64,000 nucleotides of DNA from Labilibaculum antarcticum (lineage in GTDB: Bacteria > Bacteroidota > Bacteroidia > Bacteroidales > Marinifilaceae). How positions within the stretch are numbered: the first letter of the stretch is position 1; each line of letters begins with the position of its first letter. The notes under the pieces are model-generated. The model saw nothing but the letters and a program-made list of their open reading frames with translations. It was not told the DNA's origin and searched no databases. Shown here piece after piece: positions 37,812-60,008 of this stretch. The DNA lies in NCBI RefSeq assembly GCF_002356295.1, contig NZ_AP018042.1:2140361-2204360 (forward strand), in the 5' to 3' direction. The position numbers were made by a program, and so were the translations under genes.

Positions 37812-40800
37812 TCAGCTATTATTTATTGGATTGCTGAAGAAAAATGTGGCGCCTTTGTCAATTTCACTTTCTGCCCAGCACTTTCCTCCATGTTTTAGAA
37901 CAATTCTGTTCACATTGGCCAGGCCAATGCCAATTCCTTCAAAATCTTTGGCTTTATGCAGGCGCTGAAAAACTCCAAATAGTTTATCTGCATACTTCAT
38001 ATCAAATCCTACACCATTGTCTTTTACGTAAAATATTGTTTTATCATCCTCCATTTTACCACCAATTTCAATGACGGCTTTATCAAGCTTTCGTGAATAT
38101 TTAAGAGCGTTTGAAATTAAATTCATCCATACCTGATTGAGTAAATTTTCGTCGCCCCACGAATCCGGAAGATCTGCTATTTTTATCTCAATATTTCTTC
38201 CTGCCAATTCCTTGGTAAAAGTTTTTAATACACGCTTGACCATGGTTTTTGTGTTCAGTTTGGTTCCTTTCAATTCAGACCTTCCCAGTCTTGAAAAGCT
38301 TAGTAAGGCATCAATCAGATTTCCCATTTCTTTGGATGATTCTGAAATGATGTTCAAATACCTTAACCCATTATCATTTAGCTGATCTGAATTGTTTTTC
38401 ATCAGTAAATCAACAAAACCGCCAATATGCCTCAGTGGAGCACGTAAATCGTGAGAAACAGAATAGCTGAACGCCTCCAGTTCTTTATTTGCAGATTCAA
38501 GTTGAAAGGTTCGTTCGATGACTCTCTGCTCTAAATTTTTATTCATTTTTGTGATTTTTGCTTCTGCTTGTTTTCTCAACGTGATATCATTGCCCTGAGC
38601 TATGGTAGCAATCGGTGTTTTTCCGTCCGATGACATTATATTGGCCGAATTCCAAAGAATTATTCTTACCGAGCCATCGATGTGAGCGATATTCATTTCG
38701 TCGACCTCCATCTGCTCGCCCTCAAGTGTTTTCTTGATAAGATACATCGAATTATCGACAGAAGCAGGTGGAAAGAGAATTTCCAGCGATTCACCAATAA
38801 CTTCCTTTTCTATTCTTCCTGTGATATTTTCGAAAGCTTTGTTGAAACTTGTGATTTTATAATTCCTGTCCCAGACAATAATTGGGGCACTTGCAGAGTT
38901 GATCAAATTCTCCAAATACTCGTTGACTTTCCGGCGCTCCTCGTTGGCAAGGCTTAAGTCTGCTGCTTTTCGCTTGAGTTCGGTTATATTATTAATCATA
39001 CACAAATGTAGGGGATGTGATTTATCATCATGCAAAATAGGTGATATAGTCATATCAACCCAAACGAATGATCCATCAGGAAGAATATAACGTTTTTCCA
39101 TCTCAAATCCACTTATTTCCCCGGCAAGCAGTTTAGCCATATTGTCCAAGTCTAACTGAAGATCATCTGGATGAGTAATGCTCATCCAGTCGATATTAGC
39201 CATTTGTTTATTTGTCCGCCCTACAATTTTAGCAAACATAAGATTAACATTATAAAGTTTCCCGCTTAAAGAATCAATTAGCGCAATGCCAATAGGAGCC
39301 TCATTAAAAATAGTTTTAAATCGTACTTCACTCTCTTCTTGTTGAAATGTAAATTCTTTGTGAGAAATAACTAGCTCTGCCGCCCGTTTTTCCTTCTCTT
39401 CGTGTTGAAAAACAACTTCTTTATCGGCAATGATCAATTCTGCCGCCCTTTTCTCTTTCTCTTTGTTTTGAAATACAAGTTCCTTATTGGCAATGCTTAA
39501 TTCAGCGGCACGCTTTTCTTTCTCTTCATTTTGATAAACAAGTTCCTTGTTTGCAAAGAATAATTCATCAGCCCGTTTTTCTTTCTCCCTATTTTCAATG
39601 ACCAGTTTTTGATTGGCGATGAATAATTCCCCGGCCCTTTTTTCTTTCTCTTTGTTTTGAAACGCAAGTTCTTTATTGGCAATGCTTAATTCAGCAGCCC
39701 TTTTTTCTTTCTCTTTGTTTTGAAAAGCAAGTTCTTTATTCGCCATAAATAACTCGTCGGCCCGTTTTTCTTTTTCACGGTTTTGAAAGGCAAGCTCCTT
39801 GTTCGCAACAGCGAGCTCTGCAGCGCGCTTTTCTTTCTCCTCGTTTTGAAAGGCCAGTTCTTTATTGACATTTCTTAGCTCAATGGCCCATTTTTGTTCC
39901 GTAACATCACGTGCCGCCGCAAAAACACCGAGCACATTTCCTTTATCGTCTTTGTAAACCGAAGCATTGTAAAGCACATCCGTTAAATGCCCGTCTTTGT
40001 GTTTTATGCTTAAGGGATAATCGGCTACAAAACCTTTTTCAAAAACCTGAAGATATCCTTCCCTGGCTTTTTTCGGATCAGTAAAATAATTCGAGAAGTC
40101 GGTATCTATAAGCTTTTTACGCGGAATACCGGTAACTTTTACGGATGCCTCGTTCACATCCGTGATTTTTCCTTCCGCACTGATGGTTACCAGTGGATCT
40201 AAACTGGCTTCGATTAAACTGCGGGCATATTGTGAAGATTGTTTTTGTTGCGTAACATCACGGGCAGCCGCAAAAACACCGAGCACATTTCCTTTATCGT
40301 CTTTGTAAACGGAAGCATTGTAAAGCACATCCGTTAAGTGCCCGTCTTTGTGTTTTATGCTTAAGGGATAATCGGCCACAAAACCTTTTTCAAAAACCTG
40401 AAGATATCCTTCCCTGGCTTTTTTCGGATCAGTAAAATAATTCGAGAAGTCGGTATCTATAAGCTTTTTACGCGGAATACCGGTAACTTTTACGGATGCC
40501 TCGTTCACATCCATTATCTTTCCTTCCGCACTAATGGTTACCAGTGGATCTAAACTGGCTTCGATTAAACTACGGGCATATTGTGAAGATTGTTTTTGTT
40601 GCGTAACATCACGGGCAGCCGCAAAAACACCGAGCACATTTCCTTTATCGTCTTTGTAAACGGAAGCATTGTAAAGCACATCCGTTAAGTGCCCGTCTTT
40701 GTGTTTTATGCTTAAGGGATAATCGGCCACAAAGCCTTTTTCAAAAACCTGAAGATATCCTTCCCGGGCTTTTTTGGGATCAGTAAAATAATTGGAGAAG

Positions 40801-40973
40801 TCGGTATCTATGAGCTTTTTACGCGGAATACCGGTAACTTTTACGGATGCCTCGTTCACATCCATTATCTTTCCTTCCGCACTGATGGTTACCAGTGGAT
40901 CTAAACTGGCTTCGATTAAACTGCGGGCATAATTATTCTGATTTCTATCGCTGTCCTTTAGTGTTGATTTCAT
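37812..40973 (-). CDS. Multi-PAS sensor histidine kinase with triplicated PAS domain
   Basis: A 1053-residue cytosolic kinase. Residues 15-131, 132-248 and 249-360 are three almost identical PAS/PAC units of 117 residues (YARSLIEASLDPLVTISAEG to GVFAAARDVT), differing at a few positions. Next comes a coiled coil of eight 21-residue repeats (residues about 370-540), two more PAS domains (FNEAPIGIALIDSLSGK; SASAPIIVWDRNYKI), and the kinase core: H-box SYSVSHDLRAPLRHI near residue 841, N-box NLISNALKYSRK, and VKDNGVGFD with GIGIGLANVNRIV. This DHp type usually works with Rcp1-like receivers, matching the next gene. A structured leader lies 5' at 41240-41312. Confidence 0.92.
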   Translation of the reverse strand: MKSTLKDSDRNQNNYARSLIEASLDPLVTISAEGKIMDVNEASVKVTGIPRKKLIDTDFSNYFTDPKKAREGYLQVFEKGFVADYPLSIKHKDGHLTDVLYNASVYKDDKGNVLGVFAAARDVTQQKQSSQYARSLIEASLDPLVTISAEGKIMDVNEASVKVTGIPRKKLIDTDFSNYFTDPKKAREGYLQVFEKGFVADYPLSIKHKDGHLTDVLYNASVYKDDKGNVLGVFAAARDVTQQKQSSQYARSLIEASLDPLVTISAEGKITDVNEASVKVTGIPRKKLIDTDFSNYFTDPKKAREGYLQVFEKGFVADYPLSIKHKDGHLTDVLYNASVYKDDKGNVLGVFAAARDVTEQKWAIELRNVNKELAFQNEEKEKRAAELAVANKELAFQNREKEKRADELFMANKELAFQNKEKEKRAAELSIANKELAFQNKEKEKRAGELFIANQKLVIENREKEKRADELFFANKELVYQNEEKEKRAAELSIANKELVFQNKEKEKRAAELIIADKEVVFQHEEKEKRAAELVISHKEFTFQQEESEVRFKTIFNEAPIGIALIDSLSGKLYNVNLMFAKIVGRTNKQMANIDWMSITHPDDLQLDLDNMAKLLAGEISGFEMEKRYILPDGSFVWVDMTISPILHDDKSHPLHLCMINNITELKRKAADLSLANEERRKVNEYLENLINSASAPIIVWDRNYKITSFNKAFENITGRIEKEVIGESLEILFPPASVDNSMYLIKKTLEGEQMEVDEMNIAHIDGSVRIILWNSANIMSSDGKTPIATIAQGNDITLRKQAEAKITKMNKNLEQRVIERTFQLESANKELEAFSYSVSHDLRAPLRHIGGFVDLLMKNNSDQLNDNGLRYLNIISESSKEMGNLIDALLSFSRLGRSELKGTKLNTKTMVKRVLKTFTKELAGRNIEIKIADLPDSWGDENLLNQVWMNLISNALKYSRKLDKAVIEIGGKMEDDKTIFYVKDNGVGFDMKYADKLFGVFQRLHKAKDFEGIGIGLANVNRIVLKHGGKCWAESEIDKGATFFFSNPINNS
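39895..40931 (-). repeat. Three tandem 351-bp copies encoding PAS domains
   Basis: Units at 40931-40581, 40580-40230 and 40229 to about 39895 are near identical at DNA level, including silent positions, so the expansion is recent or kept uniform by gene conversion. The third copy diverges after the PAC motif, where the coiled coil starts. Confidence 0.92.
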
Positions 40974-44666: not shown

Positions 44667-47600
44667 TTAAAAAGAAAGCTTACGGAAAACAGGCACAATA
44701 TAAATATCAGTAAAACCTTTACCCAATAAGTTATACAAGAAATTCCTTGCATTTTTACGCCCGTTAAAATAGATGAACCGTACTTTATAGAATCCATCTT
44801 CAAACTCAACAGCAGTCGTTTGATTATAAATTGCATCCAGATGAGCCTGTAAGGCCAAAGCATTGGATCGCTTCCCAAACGCACCGACTTGAACTGCAAA
44901 CAATCCTCTATTAATAAGTTCATCTCCGGATGTTTGAAAAGATTCCGGATTAATTGCTTGTACATACTCCTTAACAGAAACTAGCAAGGCATCAGAATAG
45001 CCCTCTAAAGCAAGTTTTGGAAGGAATAATCGTGATTCTTCACAATCTTCAAATCCTGATATAAAAATCTTGAAATTCAGACCTTCGTGAACAATCACAA
45101 CGGAACTACCAAACTTACTTCGTATGTGATCCCTAACAGCAATAGCCTTACTCTTAAGTTTACATTCAGCAACTTGTATCAAACAAGCCGCTTTTTCTTT
45201 GACATCTTTATGTTTGGAGGCAAGCATTTTTTCTTCTTTAACTGCCATTACAGTTGCAGATGTATCCCGATCAATGTTTTGAAGCACCAACTCAAGCCCA
45301 TCGACATAATCGCCGTATACTGTACCCTTAATCGTAAATGGCAAAATATCAGGCATTGCCATCATGTCTAATTTTCGCAATTGAGCACTGTCGATTCGGG
45401 CAGTATAAGAACCGGCTGGCAAACCCAGATAGCTAAAATAACCATCAACCTCGGTAAGGGTGCGGGCAATGCGCGTAGAGCCGCTGTTGTAAAAATTGAC
45501 TATAATACGTCCAATCCCTTTCTGGCTTTCACCTTCGCGATGATAGACCGTCCCTGCCACTTCCCCAACAACAGAAACAGGAACTTCAACCCGCTTAAAA
45601 TGATTAGGTGTTACTTCAATCTTAAGAATTTTCTTTTCAATTTTCCATCCAATATTATTGAAACTATTGGGGTCAATCTGAACCGTGTAGTTTCTATAGG
45701 GTTCCATATTAACGACACGAATAATGCTATCGCGATCCATTTTCACCCTGGAACAGCCCTTAACCCTGAGTTTTAACCCCCAGGCCTTTGGCTCCCCCTT
45801 ATCGTGATGACCATTGCAGTTATAATCTAGAAAAGGCAGAAAGATGATACCTCCCTTACCAACCATATTTCGGTTATTTGTCCCTAAATACTTGGTTGAA
45901 CGATCATACATAAGGCTTCCCCGGGCCGATTGAGAAAAACTGGTTTTGTTATTACTACGACGGGCTGAAACAGACGCACTCCCAAAAGAAAAATCATAAC
46001 GCAAGCCAATTTGTGCCATACTGCTCTCACTTGACAAATTGTAATTGTATGAAATATCGAGATAAGCCTTTTTAAATACCTTTTTCCGAAGGGCAGCGCT
46101 CACGGATACCAACTCATTCTGAGAATAATTGTATTGCAAACGGGGTGAAAAAGTATAAGCAGATGGCAACCTGAAAGTCATTGAAAGATTACTGGAAACA
46201 CCAACTTGAGAACCATCTGTAAATATCGCATTGGTTTTCAAATTCGTATTGGCTCCAAAAACAGATCCTGAAAACATGATCTCAGCTCTGGTACTTTTAC
46301 CCGAGGGGTGAATTATCTGGTTTAAGGCGAGACGTGAGTAGGCTGAGAAGTTCGGAGTTCGGATTGGGAAAGACAGACTCAATTTTCGCTCTTCGAGCGT
46401 ATTCGTATTAATCGCAATCTGATCTTTTACATAGCGCGTATAATCCAAAACCAAATTCAAATTAGAAGTCCCCAGGTAACTCAGTCTGCCCACAGAACTT
46501 ACCCCATGGTTATATTCACCCGAAAACAATAAACCCGAACCAAACCTAAGCGACATATTCGCAAAAGGAATACTTCCTGCTGAAGTTGGAGAGGACAGGT
46601 ATTCCACCCCACCACCAAATGTAAAAGACCGACTTACACCATAATTGAATTTACCCCTTGTAAACCGGCTATGATCACCATCCTGAAGCACGCCAGCCTG
46701 CAGGCTATATTCAAATTCATTTTGTGGCAGAAAATTTAAAGGAATACTAATCGTCTCCTCTTTGGTACGCTCTTCTCCCCAGGGACCATAAAAACGGAGA
46801 TTTAATTCAGTATTCCCATACAGCAAGGGCACTTCGAAAGAATAGAAACCAGAAGCATCCGCTTTTGCATAATCAACCATTCTATTATTCACATAAAGTT
46901 CAACAAGCCAGTTGGGCTCTGTAAAATCACTCAAGGTGTAGGAACCAAAAGACCGCCGTTGCGTTGTAGGTGTATTGGTCAACTGCACACCCACAACAGA
47001 GGCGCTTATGGATGAAATTGATTGACTAGATATTTTACCGGCTCTCACTTGCCTCATAAGCCTGAGCTTATTATTAACAAAGTGCCATTGGTAATATTGC
47101 TTACTCAAAGAGAAATTTGAATTTGGGGTATAAGAGAGGTTTAAATTTGCTTCTCCTCCCGCAATCATCGATCCAAGGGCCAGATGTAAGTTTTCACTAC
47201 TCGCTCCCTCTAATTCCTGTTTAGAAACAATGGACCAATCAGCCATGCCCAATTTAAACAAGGGGCAATCCCGCTTAATAATTGTATCCGGGCTAATTTC
47301 GCCTTTCAGTCCAGCTCTGTTTTTACGCATGGCTTCCATACGGAGCAGACGAATTAAAGGCAGGTCGAGTTCGGTTTTCATTTTTACCGAGAGGCTTCGG
47401 AAATGAAATTTGCAGTCCAAGCCAAATACTTTCCCGAAATAGTCGAGTTTCAGGTATAAATTGCCTGCAGTCCGAATCAAATCTGTGGGCTTCAGATCAA
47501 AGCGTTTGTCCTGATATCGAATCTGGTAATTTTTTACATCTACAATGTAAGTTGCCTCTTCCTTAATGATAAAGCCTTCTACCGAATCGAATCGAGGTGC

Positions 47601-47861
47601 GGGAATGTTTTTAATCTTAAGAAAATCGAAAACATCAGGAAGTGACAGGTAGGCTTGTTGCCCGTAAATAGCTGCAGGAATCTCAGCTCCACCTACGCCT
47701 TGCACACTAAAGTAAACCGAAATCTCGTCGTATCCTCCCTCTTCCTGACCAAAAGAAGTGAGCGGAAATAGCAGCAAGAAGCAGCAGATAAGCCTCCATA
47801 AAGCAAAAGCCGGATTTTCCTCTTGTTCGATAAGATGAGCTTGAAAAATCTTAGCTGTCAT
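44667..47861 (-). CDS. Usher-like outer-membrane protein with C-terminal SPOR-type domains
   Basis: A 1064-residue protein with an N-terminal export signal (about residues 20-40, ending SFGQ). It contains an N-terminal periplasmic domain (to about 180); a long beta-barrel with aromatic alternating strands and an inserted plug-like domain (VELYVNNRMVDYAKADASGF); a loop region FLPFLDYNCNGHHDKGEPKA and a carboxypeptidase-regulatory-like fold (GEVAGTVYHREGESQKG); and at the C-terminus two SPOR-type units, the last reading RGLFAVQVGAFGKRSNALAL. The barrel and plug match fimbrial ushers, which thread subunits across the outer membrane. SPOR domains bind denuded septal peptidoglycan. It ends an operon with a chaperone and two DUF4402 subunits. 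Combining usher and SPOR is unusual. Confidence 0.82.
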   Translation of the reverse strand: MTAKIFQAHLIEQEENPAFALWRLICCFLLLFPLTSFGQEEGGYDEISVYFSVQGVGGAEIPAAIYGQQAYLSLPDVFDFLKIKNIPAPRFDSVEGFIIKEEATYIVDVKNYQIRYQDKRFDLKPTDLIRTAGNLYLKLDYFGKVFGLDCKFHFRSLSVKMKTELDLPLIRLLRMEAMRKNRAGLKGEISPDTIIKRDCPLFKLGMADWSIVSKQELEGASSENLHLALGSMIAGGEANLNLSYTPNSNFSLSKQYYQWHFVNNKLRLMRQVRAGKISSQSISSISASVVGVQLTNTPTTQRRSFGSYTLSDFTEPNWLVELYVNNRMVDYAKADASGFYSFEVPLLYGNTELNLRFYGPWGEERTKEETISIPLNFLPQNEFEYSLQAGVLQDGDHSRFTRGKFNYGVSRSFTFGGGVEYLSSPTSAGSIPFANMSLRFGSGLLFSGEYNHGVSSVGRLSYLGTSNLNLVLDYTRYVKDQIAINTNTLEERKLSLSFPIRTPNFSAYSRLALNQIIHPSGKSTRAEIMFSGSVFGANTNLKTNAIFTDGSQVGVSSNLSMTFRLPSAYTFSPRLQYNYSQNELVSVSAALRKKVFKKAYLDISYNYNLSSESSMAQIGLRYDFSFGSASVSARRSNNKTSFSQSARGSLMYDRSTKYLGTNNRNMVGKGGIIFLPFLDYNCNGHHDKGEPKAWGLKLRVKGCSRVKMDRDSIIRVVNMEPYRNYTVQIDPNSFNNIGWKIEKKILKIEVTPNHFKRVEVPVSVVGEVAGTVYHREGESQKGIGRIIVNFYNSGSTRIARTLTEVDGYFSYLGLPAGSYTARIDSAQLRKLDMMAMPDILPFTIKGTVYGDYVDGLELVLQNIDRDTSATVMAVKEEKMLASKHKDVKEKAACLIQVAECKLKSKAIAVRDHIRSKFGSSVVIVHEGLNFKIFISGFEDCEESRLFLPKLALEGYSDALLVSVKEYVQAINPESFQTSGDELINRGLFAVQVGAFGKRSNALALQAHLDAIYNQTTAVEFEDGFYKVRFIYFNGRKNARNFLYNLLGKGFTDIYIVPVFRKLSF

Positions 47862-47888
47862 GGGAATTATATCTGCTTAAACCGGTGT

Positions 47889-48395
47889 TTATTCCTGTAT
47901 AAAAGTGACTTCGAGTGAGCCACTGTAATCTCCCGAAGAATTGGCTTGAGGATTTTCCATAGTCAGAATGCCGCCCATACGAACCTGTATCCGACCTGAA
48001 GGGGGGACGATAATCGGGAAACCGGGTTCAGAGTCACCTACCTGAAGACTTATAGAACCACCATTACTGCGAGACATGCCTGTGTCAGATCCTTTTAGGA
48101 TAAATACCAGCGTTCCGGGCTCAGCCTCTAGTTCGTAAATAGCAGGATAATACGAAAATCCTGAAACATTGGCCACTATCATGTCGCCACTAAGCAGTCG
48201 TGTACCATCTGGTGAAACTGTGACAGTTCCTCCTGAACTCCCCTGAAAGAAGGCTCCAAAACTAATGTCTTGAATGGTTACAACAGAGAACGGAACAGCT
48301 GGCTCCTGAGCTACTAAGGACAAGTGACTCAATAGAAAAAGTAAGCCTCCGCAAATAAATGTAAGTAAGCGACTACGTTTGAAGGCAAGTATCAT
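47889..48395 (-). CDS. DUF4402 secreted subunit, second copy
   Basis: I use the ATG at 48395 (168 residues); the longer frame overlaps the chaperone gene. The N-terminus MILAFKRSRLLTFICGGLLF followed by LLSHLSLVAQ is a signal peptide. The mature protein has the DUF4402 pattern: ISFGAFFQGSSGGTVTVSPDG near the start and the final strand SGSLEVTFIQE. It lies between chaperone and usher and could be a minor or tip subunit; the second fibre protein is at 49417. A 23-base gap separates it from the chaperone and 27 bases from the usher, so they are co-transcribed. Confidence 0.8.
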   Translation of the reverse strand: MILAFKRSRLLTFICGGLLFLLSHLSLVAQEPAVPFSVVTIQDISFGAFFQGSSGGTVTVSPDGTRLLSGDMIVANVSGFSYYPAIYELEAEPGTLVFILKGSDTGMSRSNGGSISLQVGDSEPGFPIIVPPSGRIQVRMGGILTMENPQANSSGDYSGSLEVTFIQE

Positions 48396-48418
48396 GAAGA
48401 TTTTCTTGTGTGGAATGA

Positions 48419-49294
48419 TTAGTGCAGGTTCAGTTCTGCTTCGCAAAGCATAGCTCCCTTATCAGCTTTTTGCCTGCTGTACACCAAATGTAATTTCCCT
48501 TTTGTATAATCAATTCCGGCCTGATTGTCAAGTTTCATTGAAAAAGTTCGGGAGGCAGTCGGCGAATAAACGGCTAATCCTTTTACAAGCCCTACCTGAA
48601 TTAACTTCCCTTCCGGTGAAATATAATCAACCCGAATATCCCCATAAACCGACATGTTCCCGGTACGGTCAAATTTTAATTTTAGCTTGAAAGTCTGATC
48701 TTCGTCCCTAACAAGTTCCAAATTCGAAAGACTCACCTGAGCCGTAGATTCTCCCCTGCGGATAATCACCGGAATGGTAATGCCAAAAACAGGCTTCAAA
48801 CTGACAGAGAGTCCTGTAGCAACATGGCTGTCTTCTTTCTCGCCAAGCGCCTTTTTTTGAGGTACAGCTCGAAAATAGATATGAGAACGGAATTCCCCTG
48901 TGACCAACTGGTTGGTTTTGCTCAGCTGCATTTTCACAAGCTGAGCTTCATTGGGAGCAAGAGTCACCCTGCGTGGAAAAAAACGCAGGTTGTCACTGGC
49001 AAAATTCTGACCCGGATCTGGCTGAGTGATTTCCTCAAAACCCCCACCTTCCGTCATCCTGATTTCTTTGAATGAAATATTGTAAGTGGCAGTATCCTTT
49101 CCCGTATTGGCCAGATTCAATTCCTGCATTCTTTTATTCCCCTCAAAAACCACCCTGCGTGGGGTAATGAGCAGGTTTCCTTGCGCCATCGCTTGTCCTG
49201 AAGAAAAAAGGGACAATACAATGCAACCTAAAAAAGAAAAAAACATTGCCTTTTTTAAGGTGATTTGTGTCTGTAAGAATCCGACTACTCTCAT
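48419..49294 (-). CDS. PapD-like periplasmic fimbrial chaperone
   Basis: A 291-residue protein with a signal peptide ending SSGQAMAQ. The mature part has the two-domain immunoglobulin chaperone layout: first strand NLLITPRRVVFEGNKRMQEL, then LNLANTGKDTATYNISFKEI, and the G1-type strand FFPRRVTLAPNEAQLVKMQL with the alternating hydrophobic residues that would complete subunit folds. A second Ig-like domain follows (VIIRRGESTAQVSLSNLELV). It is longer than classic 230-residue chaperones. It should shuttle the DUF4402 proteins to the usher, and it sits in the same operon. Confidence 0.85.
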   Translation of the reverse strand: MRVVGFLQTQITLKKAMFFSFLGCIVLSLFSSGQAMAQGNLLITPRRVVFEGNKRMQELNLANTGKDTATYNISFKEIRMTEGGGFEEITQPDPGQNFASDNLRFFPRRVTLAPNEAQLVKMQLSKTNQLVTGEFRSHIYFRAVPQKKALGEKEDSHVATGLSVSLKPVFGITIPVIIRRGESTAQVSLSNLELVRDEDQTFKLKLKFDRTGNMSVYGDIRVDYISPEGKLIQVGLVKGLAVYSPTASRTFSMKLDNQAGIDYTKGKLHLVYSRQKADKGAMLCEAELNLH

Positions 49295-49371
49295 AATTTT
49301 ATTATTGAGGAAACAAGCCAGTTTTTATGGCTAAAAAAAGAAACTTTGATAAAGATGAGATACACTTAATA

Positions 49372-49410
49372 AATCATTAGGGGGAAACACTGCGTTTCCC
49401 CCTAATGATT
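49372..49410. terminator. Perfect hairpin between subunit and chaperone genes
   Basis: AATCATTAGGGGGAAAC and GTTTCCCCCTAATGATT pair over 17 bases around a 5-base loop. It lies just past the stop of the DUF4402 gene at 49417 and before the chaperone. Partial termination or RNA protection there would let the subunit be made in excess over chaperone and usher. Confidence 0.85.
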
Positions 49411-49416
49411 ATATTA

Positions 49417-49953
49417 CTAGTTATAATTCACTGTTACTTCGAAACCTGTTTCATTTGTATAAACTCCAGCAAGCTGTGATGCATCTACATTCAAAGTAGC
49501 ACCAACTGTCAAAGCAAATGTACCGGATGCCAATGTACCAGTCCATACACCTTCAGTATCAACACCATTACATGTAAAAGCATTTACGGTCATATTATTC
49601 TCCGCGCCATCAGAAATTGTATAATCAGCAGTTGGCAAAGTAATTACATAAGTATAAGCGCCTTCCCCTGTTACAGTAAAAGCAGCAGCTTGTTCGGCTC
49701 CAGAACCCACTGTAGGTATTGTTACACCTCCAGTAGTTGAGCGAACAGCTGACGGTGATAAGATAACAGTTCCAGCGGTAGACTGTACAGCAACATTACC
49801 GAAATTCATATCGTCTGTTTGAAGAATGCTAATTGGTTGTACAATAGTTGCAGAAGCTGTAGCTGCTGCACTTCTTTCGGCTTGTGCAAAAGAGCTGGTT
49901 GCAAATCCAAACATCATGATTGCAATAGCAAAAACTTTAGTTAAATTTTTCAT
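49417..49953 (-). CDS. DUF4402 secreted protein, presumed main fibre subunit
   Basis: I place the start at 49953 (178 residues): MKNLTKVFAIAIMMFGFATS then SFAQA, a clear signal peptide, whereas the upstream extension is Lys-rich and not translated-looking. The mature chain begins ERSAAATASATIVQPIS and has the DUF4402 features: DDMNFGNVAVQSTAGTVILS and the end GFEVTVNYN. It is first in the fibre operon, followed by the 17-bp hairpin, and is the best candidate for the polymerising subunit handled by the chaperone and usher. No PorSS-type sorting tail is visible. Confidence 0.82.
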   Translation of the reverse strand: MKNLTKVFAIAIMMFGFATSSFAQAERSAAATASATIVQPISILQTDDMNFGNVAVQSTAGTVILSPSAVRSTTGGVTIPTVGSGAEQAAAFTVTGEGAYTYVITLPTADYTISDGAENNMTVNAFTCNGVDTEGVWTGTLASGTFALTVGATLNVDASQLAGVYTNETGFEVTVNYN

Positions 49954-50604: not shown

Positions 50605-50815
50605 ATTACCCATGTGAGATTAACAATGTGGTATGGAAAATTTGAATGTACTGCCCTTCCCAATCTCACTTTCTATCCAAATCTCACCTTTGTGCATTTC
50701 GATAAATTCCCTACAAAGTAGCAAACCCAGGCCAGTTCCTGATTCCTTGTTTGTTCCCTCTTTTGAATGGCAATAATCGATCCGGAATAGTTGGTCAATA
50801 TATTTTTGAATTCTA
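50605..50815 (-). pseudogene. Duplicated 3' fragment of the sensor kinase at 52077
   Basis: This stretch repeats the last 70 codons of the downstream kinase. The predicted protein ends SKEGTNKESGTGLGLLLC and HKGEIWIESEIGKG, matching the kinase's C-terminal ATP-lid region apart from a few substitutions (Arg for Lys, Glu for Asp). No H-box or N-box precedes it; the left end joins the methyltransferase stop region. It is a dead fragment. Confidence 0.85.
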
Positions 50816-50818
50816 CTT

Positions 50819-51757
50819 TTATTTAACTGCTTCGACAAATAATGCCACGAAATTCCACAAATTATCAAAGTATTTTCGATTTCGAAGAACACGGGCTGAA
50901 CTTTGCCCTGGAGCCATGATCTGAACTTTGCTGAATCCAGCTGTTTTTAATGCCTTGATCAATTTATCATGATTCCACCAGTTGATGTGATTGGAACGGT
51001 ACTTTCTTTGTATCTCAACAGAACATCTAGAAGAGCAATAATCTAAGGCATCTTCCATTTTCATGGTGTTCATTATGTGATTGAACTCCTCGTCCTGAAT
51101 TTGTTGGGGATTATCTTCGGAATGAATTGTTGAAGCATTGGCTGCAAAATGAACTAAGGCAACCTGTTCAAAAGACGCTTGATTCAAGCGTGTTTTATAT
51201 CCATATACAGGATGGTGTCTATCGGAGCTCTGAATATCTACCCATGAATAATAGGTTTTATCATTATTTAAATACGCATTATAATCTAATTCTGAATTTG
51301 GCGCAACCACTTTAAAAACGCCTCCAGGTTTAAGCGAGCGGTATGCCTCTTTAAAGAAGTAAGCTGCAGCTTCGTCATCTAAATGTTCTATTGTGTATTG
51401 CGATTGAATTATCTCAGCAGAATCACTCTCAAGTGGAAGTGGCGTTTTATCCAACAAATCGTGCATGATATCCTTTTCGGGATTGTATCTTTCCCACCCA
51501 TCAAGTAGTATTGGAGCCTCTACGTCTATGTTAGTCCAAAACGGATGATAAAAATAGCCTCCGAACCCACCATGTCCACCTGCACAAATATTATAAAAGG
51601 CTCTTTTTTTTACACTGTCTTCACCATATTGTTGAACATATAGGTTGAGATCATCTTTAAACTTATTATATGTAATTTTAAATCCTGTATTACTTTCAAT
51701 AATTTTTTGTGTTTTTAACGCAAGTTTTCTGGCTGCATTTTTTACTGAATTAGTCAT
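50819..51757 (-). CDS. Methyltransferase-type-11-like SAM-dependent enzyme
   Basis: A 312-residue protein. A SAM-methyltransferase core begins around residue 60: DGWERYNPEKDIMHDLLDKT, then IIQSQYTIEHLDDEAAAYFF and YRSLKPGGVFKVVAPNSELD, the latter a typical strand-4/motif-IV region. The glycine-rich loop is poorly conserved, as in several type-11 families. N-terminal residues GGHGGFGGYFYHPFWTN are unusual. A role in modifying a polysaccharide or metabolite is possible but unproven. The stop codon adjoins the duplicated kinase fragment; the neighbouring kinase lies 320 bases upstream on the same strand. Confidence 0.8.
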   Translation of the reverse strand: MTNSVKNAARKLALKTQKIIESNTGFKITYNKFKDDLNLYVQQYGEDSVKKRAFYNICAGGHGGFGGYFYHPFWTNIDVEAPILLDGWERYNPEKDIMHDLLDKTPLPLESDSAEIIQSQYTIEHLDDEAAAYFFKEAYRSLKPGGVFKVVAPNSELDYNAYLNNDKTYYSWVDIQSSDRHHPVYGYKTRLNQASFEQVALVHFAANASTIHSEDNPQQIQDEEFNHIMNTMKMEDALDYCSSRCSVEIQRKYRSNHINWWNHDKLIKALKTAGFSKVQIMAPGQSSARVLRNRKYFDNLWNFVALFVEAVK

Positions 51758-52076: not shown

Positions 52077-53843
52077 TTATTCATCTGAATAACAATGTGG
52101 TATGGAAAATTTGAATGTACTGCCCTTCCCGATCTCACTTTCTATCCAAATATCACCCTTGTGCATTTCGATAAACTCCTTACAAAGCAACAAACCCAGG
52201 CCAGTTCCCGATTCCTTGTTTGTTCCCTCTTTTGAATGGCAATAATCGATCCGGAACAATTTGTCAATATATTCTTGTGTCATCCCAACTCCATTATCAG
52301 CAACAGAAACAATCAATTGCTTCTCCATTTGTTCCGTGCTAATGGTTAATTCGCCTCCCGAATTAGTGAATTTTATCGCATTCGCAACTAGATTTCTCAA
52401 AACGGTAGTTATCATAGCCTTATCAGCTACAACAGGAATATGTTGAGGTGATTTTTTAAAAATTGCAATGGATTTTTGATGAGCTGTATCATTGGATAAT
52501 TCCAACACTTCATTAATTACACTGACCAATTCAATACATTGCGGATCAAATTTAATTTTTCCTGTTTGTGCTTGTGACCAATCTAAGAGGTTTTTGAGCA
52601 GATTCATTGCTCGTTCTGAGGAATCTTGTATAATAGCTGCGTATCGCGCAACCCCTTCGTAATCACGTTCTTGAATGCGATCTAAAATAAGATCACTGAA
52701 GCCAATCACACTATTAAAGGGACTCTTCAAGTCGTGCCCAATAATAGAGAAAAAACGGTCTTTGGTAGCATTCAGCTCCCGCAGACGGATTTCATTCATT
52801 TTAATACTTTGCTCAGTCTGTTTTCGTTCTGTGATATCACGAACGTTAAGAATAACAGATTTAATTGCAGGATTATCTAATTGATTGTTCCCAAAAGCTT
52901 CCAGATAGACCCAGTTCCCATTTTTATGACGATGTCGGTATTGAGTTCCTCCGCTTGTTTTATTTTCAATCATATCACGAAAGCCTTTTGCCGCTAACTT
53001 CTGATCTTCCGGATGAATCATGCTTTCTATAACTGGCACATTTATCAGTTCATCGGTTTTGAAACCCAGTATTTTCTCACATGATTCACTCACATAATGT
53101 TGAATTCCATTTGAATCAACAAGAGTAATCATGTCAAATGAATTTTTTATGAGTCCTTTAAACAATTCTTCCTGTGTTGAGATTTCAGTTAGCAGTCGCT
53201 TATTAAACATCAATATGAGGTTGTAAGCAAGGAATAGAAAAGTAATTTGATTGACTATGATAAACCATGTCTCAGAGTCATTTGAATTAAAATAGGAGCT
53301 TATTGAATGATCTCCAACTAAAAGATAAATGATCCGCCAAACATAGATCAAGCTATAGATGAGAAAAATCAGACCAACTCCCCTTACCATCTGACGCATA
53401 TTAACAGGAGTCTTCTTTAGCATGAACAATGCCGTTTGGGAAAAAATATAGAATAAAGCAAAGGATGAAAGGAGGATTCTTGCAAACAGCAAAGGATTGA
53501 AATAAGCAAAATAGAAATGAACAATGAAATAGACCAAAATTATAATGTAGTTATAACTTTGAAGTCCTTTTTTCCCGCAAAATTGTTGAAGTCCAGTTAA
53601 CATCACCACTCCTGATGAAAAAATTAAGGTATTTGCAACCGTCATCGAAATCCAGTCAGGAACAACACCCCTCATAAATATCAAAATGGTTCCTAATGCA
53701 TTAAAGACAAAGCAAAGCAGTATAAAAGTTGTACCTGGAAATCTCTTTTTCACTTGCAAAAACAGCAGAACAATTACCGCTAAGCTTATGATATTCGTTA
53801 TTAAATAGCTAATAAAAATTGTAGGGAAGTCGATTTGAAACAT
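52077..53843 (-). CDS. Seven-helix membrane PAS sensor histidine kinase
   Basis: A 588-residue kinase. Residues 1-210 hold about seven hydrophobic helices without large loops, resembling a 7TM-type sensor module. A PAS domain follows (LIKNSFDMITLVDSNGIQHY to NVRDITERKQTEQ), then the catalytic core: FFSIIGHDLKSPFNSVIGFS with the phosphorylated His, NLVANAIKFTNSGGEL, VADNGVGMTQ and GTGLGLLLCKEFIEMH. No receiver domain is attached and no regulator is adjacent, so the partner is unknown. Its last 70 codons are duplicated at 50605-50815. Confidence 0.92.
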   Translation of the reverse strand: MFQIDFPTIFISYLITNIISLAVIVLLFLQVKKRFPGTTFILLCFVFNALGTILIFMRGVVPDWISMTVANTLIFSSGVVMLTGLQQFCGKKGLQSYNYIIILVYFIVHFYFAYFNPLLFARILLSSFALFYIFSQTALFMLKKTPVNMRQMVRGVGLIFLIYSLIYVWRIIYLLVGDHSISSYFNSNDSETWFIIVNQITFLFLAYNLILMFNKRLLTEISTQEELFKGLIKNSFDMITLVDSNGIQHYVSESCEKILGFKTDELINVPVIESMIHPEDQKLAAKGFRDMIENKTSGGTQYRHRHKNGNWVYLEAFGNNQLDNPAIKSVILNVRDITERKQTEQSIKMNEIRLRELNATKDRFFSIIGHDLKSPFNSVIGFSDLILDRIQERDYEGVARYAAIIQDSSERAMNLLKNLLDWSQAQTGKIKFDPQCIELVSVINEVLELSNDTAHQKSIAIFKKSPQHIPVVADKAMITTVLRNLVANAIKFTNSGGELTISTEQMEKQLIVSVADNGVGMTQEYIDKLFRIDYCHSKEGTNKESGTGLGLLLCKEFIEMHKGDIWIESEIGKGSTFKFSIPHCYSDE

Positions 53844-57725: not shown

Positions 57726-60008
57726 TTAATGAATGAATAGTAATTTAATCACCTTCGATTTAGAACCATCAGAATTGGAGCAAAATATCAGGTAAACACC
57801 AGTATGCACTCTCGATCTGTTGAAGTTTTTCCCATCCCAGATAAACTGGCCGCCCTCTGATTTTCCTTCCATCACCAAATTACCACTAATATCAGTGATT
57901 TTCACAGTCGATTTGGCCATTAAACCACTCACAACAACATCACCGTGATAGGTTTCCCGAACGGGATTCGGATACACATAGAGATCATTATAAGATTCTG
58001 TTCCTGCAGTTACCTCTCCTTTATAAGAAACCATTCCTTTATCGGTCACAAAAAACACCTCCCCATTTTCCGGATTTACTGATATTTTCTGAACTGTATT
58101 GGAAGGCAAAGGACTGTTTTCACTTGTAAAATGAGACAATTGCTCATCACCATTCTCAGAAATCAGGAAAACACCTGAATTTGCCGTTCCCAGCCATTTT
58201 TGATTGGCTCCATTCAAAGCAATGGCATTTACAACTTCCGTTCCCAGCAAATACTGAGTGGAACCTTCGATAGTAATTATAGGCTGATAGGCATAAAAGC
58301 TGCCTGTCCTAAAAATATTTCCCGGGTTGGAATAAACCGCAACTCCACTTGATGTTCCGCACCATACATCTCCATTGTCATCTTCAATCAGATCGTAAAT
58401 ATTCGAACTGATTGTTGAATTGTTCTCATCACGAACTAAAAAAGAAGCGACAGCATCATCATCCTGATTGGAAAGGGTCTGATTTTCATTAAATGCAAAA
58501 AGAGCTTGTCCCGGAGCATTTAAAACCCATTTGTCTCCATTTTGAAGGCAGACAATCTTTTGCATATTTACACGGTTTGCAAGGGTTGAATAGCTTAAAG
58601 AAGTCCATTCACCGGCAAGAGAATGAACTTTTACCGGAGCAGAAGAATTCGCATCCAATATCCATAAATTTCCATCCTCATCCGAATCCATGCCACTAAT
58701 TCCTTTCGTACCAAGCGGTGAATTTTCAAAATTCCAATTGGTTGTAAATTCATTCTTTTCAAAAACAAATAGTCCATCTCCCCAACTAGCCGCATAAACA
58801 AGGGATTGATCTCTTTTATTGCCTGTGATCGAAAGCAAATCAAATTGATTCTCGAAAGCTGATGTGTTTTCTTTTGAATAGTTGGTCCATTGCTGATTTT
58901 CAAACAAAAACAATTCCGCATCTTCGCCCATTCCCTCAAAAGCAGCTGTTACACCGCCAGCAACAGCCCATGTTTGATCCGCAACTGAGAATACATTTGA
59001 TATATTTTTACGTAAAGGTCCGTCGGGTTTAATTTGATCGGTACCACTTCCACTAATCTCCCGCAAGGATGTCTGGTAATCAGCAATAAATGTTCTTCCA
59101 GCTACTTCCAAAGCATCACGCATTGCAGAAATTCCTGAAGACTGCAAAACTGAGTCTTCAATTCCTGTTGCAGTAAACAGTTGAGTTTTATCGGTTTGCA
59201 CTACCCACAATTGATTTTCACTGTTTCTAATGGAATAGATTCTTGAAAAATTTCCGGCGAATTTAGCCCAAACGGCATTCCTGTTCCGATACAATTCGCT
59301 TGATGTTTCAGACAAAATCCGGCTTACAATTACATTACCATCAATCAGTTCCAAATGTTCACATTCTCTTTGAAAAACAGGAATGTTTAGCTGATGATCC
59401 CAGTTATTATAATCCGCCAAATTACTTGAAGATAAATCTGCTGAATAAATTCCCTGATTGGTAGCGGCCCAAATTGTAGTTGAGCTTATTTTGATGTCAT
59501 TCACTACCAATTTCTCACCCTCAGCGCCAATAAAATAGGTGTCAGCAACTTCCATTTTATCCAAATTAATGACCACAATTCCAAAATCCGTACCCAAATA
59601 GGCAAACTCACTTGTACAAGTAATGGAATTGATGGACTTGTTCTCGATCAGGGAGAATTTCTTGATGTCCGGAATATTTTGAATTACTCCATCAGATATA
59701 ACATCCAAATTCCCGCTTGCATACCCAATCAAAAGACTGCGTGAAGCCTCTTCCCAGCCAATGGCGGAAATTTCCGATTCCGACAAGCCCTTTGTTTTAC
59801 TGAAAGCAACTATTTCATTATCGTTCAACGAGTAAGAAAACAAGCCTGATTCAGTTAAGCAATACAATTTTTCGCCACCAGCAAGCAAGGCATTTGCCTT
59901 CTGATATGGCAAATGCTCCCTCCATTCACCAATCTTTATCTGACTTTGAGTAGTCAAAGCAAATGTTAGAAGTAAAAAAGTGAAAATGCATCGGATTTGT
60001 AGCTTCAT
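57726..60008 (-). CDS. porZ: PorZ-like type IX secretion protein with beta-propeller
   Basis: A 760-residue protein. Signal peptide MKLQIRCIFTFLLLTFALTT, then the N-terminal motif IGEWREHLPYQKANALLAGG, typical of PorZ, and propeller blades with S-E-I-S-A-I and VNDIKISSTTIWAATNQGIY patterns. The last 85 residues (LYVYPNPVRETYHGDVVVSG to SKVIKLLFIH) match the type-A C-terminal sorting domain. PorZ is an outer-membrane surface part of the type IX system that delivers A-LPS to the sortase. It is co-transcribed with recO, ten bases downstream, and likely with rdgB upstream. Presence of a T9SS is implied, though other parts are outside the window. Confidence 0.9.
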   Translation of the reverse strand: MKLQIRCIFTFLLLTFALTTQSQIKIGEWREHLPYQKANALLAGGEKLYCLTESGLFSYSLNDNEIVAFSKTKGLSESEISAIGWEEASRSLLIGYASGNLDVISDGVIQNIPDIKKFSLIENKSINSITCTSEFAYLGTDFGIVVINLDKMEVADTYFIGAEGEKLVVNDIKISSTTIWAATNQGIYSADLSSSNLADYNNWDHQLNIPVFQRECEHLELIDGNVIVSRILSETSSELYRNRNAVWAKFAGNFSRIYSIRNSENQLWVVQTDKTQLFTATGIEDSVLQSSGISAMRDALEVAGRTFIADYQTSLREISGSGTDQIKPDGPLRKNISNVFSVADQTWAVAGGVTAAFEGMGEDAELFLFENQQWTNYSKENTSAFENQFDLLSITGNKRDQSLVYAASWGDGLFVFEKNEFTTNWNFENSPLGTKGISGMDSDEDGNLWILDANSSAPVKVHSLAGEWTSLSYSTLANRVNMQKIVCLQNGDKWVLNAPGQALFAFNENQTLSNQDDDAVASFLVRDENNSTISSNIYDLIEDDNGDVWCGTSSGVAVYSNPGNIFRTGSFYAYQPIITIEGSTQYLLGTEVVNAIALNGANQKWLGTANSGVFLISENGDEQLSHFTSENSPLPSNTVQKISVNPENGEVFFVTDKGMVSYKGEVTAGTESYNDLYVYPNPVRETYHGDVVVSGLMAKSTVKITDISGNLVMEGKSEGGQFIWDGKNFNRSRVHTGVYLIFCSNSDGSKSKVIKLLFIH

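Follow-up and report, generated by a model that had tools for sequence, protein, structure and literature searches.

A chaperone-usher-type fibre operon of Labilibaculum antarcticum whose usher ends in a candidate wall-binding SPOR tail

The four-gene operon

The stretch of DNA analysed here, the window, comprises 64,000 nucleotides of Labilibaculum antarcticum (contig NZ_AP018042.1, positions 2,140,361 to 2,204,360) and contains at 44667-49953 a set of four genes on the minus strand, in the order DUF4402 subunit, chaperone, second DUF4402 subunit and usher. A first-pass annotation, made from the letters of the sequence, had proposed a chaperone-usher-like operon of just this composition with a SPOR-tailed usher, and the four genes are present there on one strand. 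The genome is a single contig of 5.72 Mb, in which no DUF4402 domain was found beyond the operon's two at E<=0.001, and the top named matches to the usher are Labilibaculum records with 80 and 75% identity. Structure prediction together with the conservation in relatives makes it nearly certain that the operon encodes a chaperone-usher system.

The usher

The usher gene (44667..47861, minus strand like all features of the operon) encodes 1064 amino acids, and the protein is recognised by structure prediction (predicted template modelling score, pTM, 0.61). The Pfam usher family PF00577, the search first suggested for this gene, gave no match to it, nor any across the genome at E<=0.001, and the gathering cut-off was not reached; the usher identity is instead borne out by the predicted model, which has the usher hallmark of a large barrel, a plug and two C-terminal Ig-like domains. 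The beta-barrel (residues 202-679, 45825..47258) is defined by the strands of the model and by structure comparisons, and past its sixth strand, by the strand order of the model, lies a plug-like beta insert (residues 304-358, 46788..46952), a block with predicted local confidence (pLDDT) of 66-73 that falls as a whole inside the range aligned to FimD. Two C-terminal beta-sandwich domains follow (residues 704-862, 45276..45752), in the model as well as in the FimD alignment, which extends up to residue 860, and sub-threshold matches to SdrD_B and CarboxypepD_reg fall in the same domains. The N-terminal domain (residues 45-165, 47367..47729) is mixed alpha/beta in the AlphaFold2 model and lies outside the aligned range in most rows of the structure comparison; from its position it would be the chaperone-binding domain. 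A classical usher was seen in a 63% complete genome of the same genus (G005:C37:1056-2708, PF00577 E 1e-148), where it is possibly a contamination.

The chaperone and the DUF4402 subunits

The chaperone (48419..49294) is predicted to fold as a PapD-like two-domain periplasmic protein, with the two Ig-like domains of the PapD architecture in the model, and its closest fold in Foldseek is CsuC. Its PapD_N match (E 0.0021, 18.5 bits) stays under the cut-off of 23, as does a slightly better match to the unrelated Ig-like family fn3_5 (E 0.00055), and among 24 related chaperones at E<=0.01 PapD_N is found in 12 and fn3_5 in 19; because PapD_N is sub-threshold and fn3_5 matches more of the relatives, the family name rests on the fold. 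In the archaic/alternative (non-classical) subgroup an invariant arginine in strand F of domain 1, Arg89 in CsuC, anchors the subunit C-terminus (PMC4654587). The chaperone of the operon has an arginine, Arg136, that is invariant in 24 of 24 sequences and that we tentatively assign to strand F of domain 1.

The first subunit (49417..49953, PF14352 E 1.4e-25) is of class 1 and is the probable polymerising one. Its signal peptide ends in SFAQ, an Ala/Thr/Ser-rich N-terminal extension follows, the C-terminus reads FEVTVNYN, and its start agrees with that of the relatives in the alignment. The second subunit (47889..48446, PF14352 E 7e-14) is of class 2, the probable tip (or terminator); it has no Ala/Thr extension, ends in VTFIQE, and probably starts, as judged from the sequence, at the in-frame ATG near 48395 and not at the TTG at 48446. 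Both score far over the cut-off for DUF4402, the one Pfam family that they match at E<=1, and profile searches against the PDB were non-significant for both (best E 0.32 for class 1, where Caf1 appears at E 0.91, and 0.24 for class 2). The same two classes appear in relatives, where class 1, ahead of the chaperone, usually has an alternating Ala/Thr/Ser-rich stretch after the signal peptide and a VTVNYN-like end, and class 2, ahead of the usher, often starts EPPPRP-like, is without such a stretch and ends VTFIQE-like. Exceptions are a second pre-chaperone form (e.g. L016, L040, L054) that starts VTAHASAEV-like and ends in TFSYN or TFDFN, and a Bacteroidales subgroup (e.g. L019, L021-L028) in which the VTAHASAEV-like form stands ahead of the usher. 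By analogy with known pili, we infer that the class 1 stretch may be the donor strand and class 2 the tip or terminator.

The SPOR tail

After the C-terminal domains the usher continues into a proximal SPOR unit (residues 893-962, 44976..45185), identified by its fold in the model and by an iterated profile, and a distal one (residues 987-1057, 44691..44903). The distal unit matches PF05036 at residues 985-1042 (E 6.3e-11, 42.9 bits versus a cut-off of 21) and the SPOR structure 1x60 of CwlC (E 1.1e-5), and among six SPOR matches in the genome that of the usher is the best. In the secondary structure of the model both units have the b-a-b-b-a-b fold. Domains of this type are known to attach to the cell wall. 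In FimD and PapC the C-terminal domains are periplasmic, and since the tail is placed after the corresponding domains, it should be periplasmic as well.

RlpA contacts its ligand through Q270, the backbone at A273-N276, F274 and a patch of R302/R309/R311 (PMC6895207). The distal unit carries Q, A, F, K and R at the corresponding positions, and this residue conservation suggests that the tail may bind denuded glycan.

Occurrence in relatives

Most of the survey of relatives concerns 80 loci, the best 80 of 157 relatives, and because these were picked by similarity to the window's usher, tail included, they overstate how frequent SPOR is. Loci L001-L005 were kept out of the counts for L006-L087; near-copies occur (L041/L042), and L008/L009 look identical to the records L004/L005. 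Of the 83 ushers in L006-L087, 75 are preceded by a DUF4402 gene at a distance of no more than 250 nt; of the eight others three are at or near the end of their locus (L010, L029, L069), one has DUF4402 slightly further upstream (L039) and three have it elsewhere in the locus (L060, L067, L071). Chaperones were seen in 26 of the 82 loci, a count that does not mean absence elsewhere because many loci end before a chaperone could appear. Loci L019, L021-L028 and L036 show a DUF4402 gene and an usher with a SPOR-profile match, and no chaperone was found in the flank fetched for them, in some cases a short one.

The usher alignment was drawn from the 83 ushers of L006-L087 and the window and kept 71, with L006/L007, cut-off frames and some near-copies left out. 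A tail of at least 60 amino acids is present in 49 of the 71, and Pfam detects SPOR at E<=0.01 in 34 of these 49; our own SPOR profile, built by iteration on these very loci, is less strict than Pfam and finds it in 42 of the 71 (Pfam: 34). The order-assigned relatives represent Bacteroidales, Marinilabiliales, Chitinophagales and Flavobacteriales, and by our own profile SPOR was found in none of the 14 Chitinophagales and 2 Flavobacteriales rows, nor in 8 Bacteroidales rows and 1 Marinilabiliales row. On the tree (FastTree only, midpoint root, with a long-branch warning) the SPOR label changes 11 times, at least 7 of them on starred branches, and the shuffled mean is 22.7; by this measure the tail is clustered, yet appears to have been repeatedly gained or lost. 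There are 1 to 3 SPOR units per tail. Among the 83 ushers 51 have a SPOR-profile match, with 107 units in total, of which 79 keep the Gln, and 39 of the 51 have at least one unit with Gln and a basic residue.

An even sample of the phylum contained the usher in 25 of 148 genomes including that of the window, two of them matched only in the C-terminal part, and among 26 loci fetched from this sample SPOR was found by our own profile in 7, the window's included. Pfam, run on six of the 26, puts SPOR over the cut-off in L090, L095 and L098 and below it in L094, and finds none in L092 and L110. Two of these ushers have tetratricopeptide (TPR) repeats in the tail, L094 over the cut-off (TPR_6, 42 bits) and L092 below it (TPR_2, 21.2 bits). 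In the genus the usher has a patchy distribution, being present in 3 of 8 other genomes, and a search with the tail in 13 related genomes gave matches in 4, exclusively to ushers.

Apparent exchange of the tail

The usher of L006, from a genome of the same genus, is 38-40% identical in the barrel to those of the window, L004 and L005, whereas its SPOR units are 47-67% (proximal) and 52-67% (distal) identical. At the DNA level its tail is 79% identical to L005 across 505 bp and to L004 across 479 bp, while outside the tail these loci share only short alignments of 40-124 bp; the signal is with L004/L005 and not with the window, since the window's tail aligns only in three pieces of 55-233 bp. 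In 119 usher pairs with 34-48% identical cores, tail identity has a mean of 29 (standard deviation 5.7) and exceeds 40% in three pairs only, those of L006 with L009, L008 and the window copy (64, 60 and 48). In general the relation is the opposite: 38 pairs have cores with 75% identity or more, and in the 25 of these whose tails differ most, tail identity is 40-65%. As a rule, then, the tail changes more quickly than the barrel, whereas in L006 it has apparently been swapped as a whole.

Proposed mechanism and alternatives

The best explanation of these results, to which we give a probability of about 0.62, is a non-classical chaperone-usher fibre, akin to the archaic/alternative kind, with a wall-tethered usher. 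The gene order, the folds of the usher, the chaperone and the SPOR units and the recurrence of the tail come out of the computation; strand exchange, the tip role, glycan binding, tethering and localisation are inferred. The chaperone would fold the DUF4402 subunits by strand donation, the class 2 subunit, being without an N-terminal donor extension, would enter first as the tip or act as a cap, and class 1 subunits would polymerise through the usher pore by strand exchange of their Ala/Thr-rich extension. The SPOR pair, following the periplasmic C-terminal domains, would tether the assembly platform to denuded peptidoglycan, at least one unit keeping the glycan-binding positions, and the tether would bear the mechanical load of the fibre. 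Judged from the residues, such a glycan tether of the usher is probable. The tether may in addition confine platforms to glycan exposed by amidases, e.g. at the septum or new poles, as the first annotation had envisaged for the division site, but this site-specific placement is less likely than not, and septal localisation need not follow from a SPOR tail because such a tether could hold at any place with exposed glycan.

A compatible variant, which stands not far short of even odds, is that the tail simply anchors the usher to the wall all round the cell, on glycan exposed by turnover, and does not act as a localisation signal. The varying number of SPOR units per tail could then tune avidity, and no division gene was noticed beside the operon in 37812-64000, the part of the window that was read.

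Several observations weigh against a wall-tethered fibre as outlined. That there are two SPOR units holds insofar as both are predicted by fold and recur in relatives, but only the distal one passes Pfam: the proximal one alone scores 15.0 bits, under the cut-off, and its counterpart in the close relative L008 scores 29.2 bits, over it. At the RlpA columns the proximal unit has Q, E, C, K and F, so that E and C replace Ala and Phe; of the basic patch, the columns compared were those of R309/R311, assigned by strand position. The pTM of the usher model and low-confidence linkers leave the placement of the tail loose, the DUF4402 subunits are described here from sequence, 12 of the 51 tails with a SPOR-profile match have only a second-half match without the Gln column, and 29 of the 71 aligned relatives have no SPOR tail by our own profile. 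The tail is thus not required for assembly as such, because the tailless relatives presumably work.

The degenerate proximal unit and the half-matched tails would also fit a chaperone-usher system whose SPOR tail serves protein-protein contacts or structure instead of binding glycan, and TPR, a protein-binding module, stands at the same place in at least one relative (L094, over the cut-off). Against this reading, the distal unit retains Gln, Ala and Phe as well as both basic residues that were looked at, and about three quarters of the units keep the Gln; we regard it as rather improbable. That the protein is some other outer-membrane barrel with an Ig-like tail is hardly credible for a model with barrel, plug-like insert after strand 6 and C-terminal domains in the order of ushers.

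Relation to known systems

Archaic pili such as Csu of Acinetobacter resemble the operon in the CsuC-like chaperone fold and in that a single operon encodes the chaperone, the usher and small subunits (CupE of Pseudomonas is, going by a paper title, another archaic chaperone-usher pilus). They differ from it in that the window's usher escapes PF00577 and ends in a SPOR tail, the subunits are DUF4402 only, and the host belongs to the Bacteroidota. With the classical ushers FimD and PapC the window's usher shares the barrel, the plug-like insert after strand 6 and the C-terminal domains, whereas identity in aligned structures is only 11-14%, and FimD and PapC end after the second C-terminal domain. 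RlpA, FtsN, DamX and CwlC share the SPOR fold and the Gln/Ala/Phe and basic positions of the distal unit, but the SPOR pair of the window is fused to a secretion pore and not to a cell-wall enzyme or division protein.

In the literature searched, which covers few subscription journals, 'outer membrane usher' and 'SPOR domain' were not found together, usher with SPOR domain and Bacteroidetes appeared only with the usher inside a reference title, and DUF4402 was not mentioned. One survey (PMC4793230) omits the chaperone-usher pathway. The earlier statement that the design is undescribed agrees with this, and the novelty of a SPOR-tailed usher is provisional, the search being thin in subscription journals. 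No part of the usher is known to bind peptidoglycan in the chaperone-usher systems studied so far. It is an open question what lets a fibre withstand pulling at the outer membrane and what determines where pili stand on a cell, and a SPOR-fused pore would be a testable handle on both load-bearing and placement; moreover, a Bacteroidota chaperone-usher family present in 25 of 148 sampled genomes evades the standard usher profile in the genome of the window.

A possible link to type IX secretion

Many related loci have a large open reading frame (ORF) just ahead of the usher-side DUF4402 gene, several of them between DUF4402 and chaperone, and these ORFs often extend past the fetched stretch. 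Five of 902-1800 amino acids lie at L014:987-6389, L037:1369-6456, L040:2519-6328, L059:1858-6390 and L076:3711-6419. The type IX sorting tail TIGR04183 was over the cut-off in four of seven large ORFs (those of L037, L040, L059 and L076), below it in two and not found in one, that of L014 (E<=0.01). The genome of the window has 18 type IX tails over the cut-off, and no large type IX ORF is found in the window's operon. It would be of note if a fibre made by one pathway had a partner that another pathway exports. It is doubtful, and rather a proposal, that in a Bacteroidota chaperone-usher family exchangeable wall-binding tails position and load-anchor the pores, so that fibres would arise only at denuded glycan (septum, new poles), many with a type IX partner between chaperone and usher that would make a two-pathway organelle. 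The window's only type IX sorting tail is on a propeller-like protein (fold assigned by eye) at 57726-60008 on the minus strand, about 8 kb from the operon.

Neighbouring genes

A minus-strand gene at 37812-40973 encodes a histidine kinase-like protein (family names by eye) in which three PAS-like units, almost identical to one another, recur with a 351-bp period (3 copies, 97% matches); after them come 63-bp (21-amino-acid) repeats in 7.7 copies. At 50620-50892, also on the minus strand, a short frame, which coincides in part with the end of a methyltransferase-like gene, is a near-exact copy of the C-terminal end of the neighbouring histidine kinase-like gene 52077-53843, which suggests a remnant of a local duplication.
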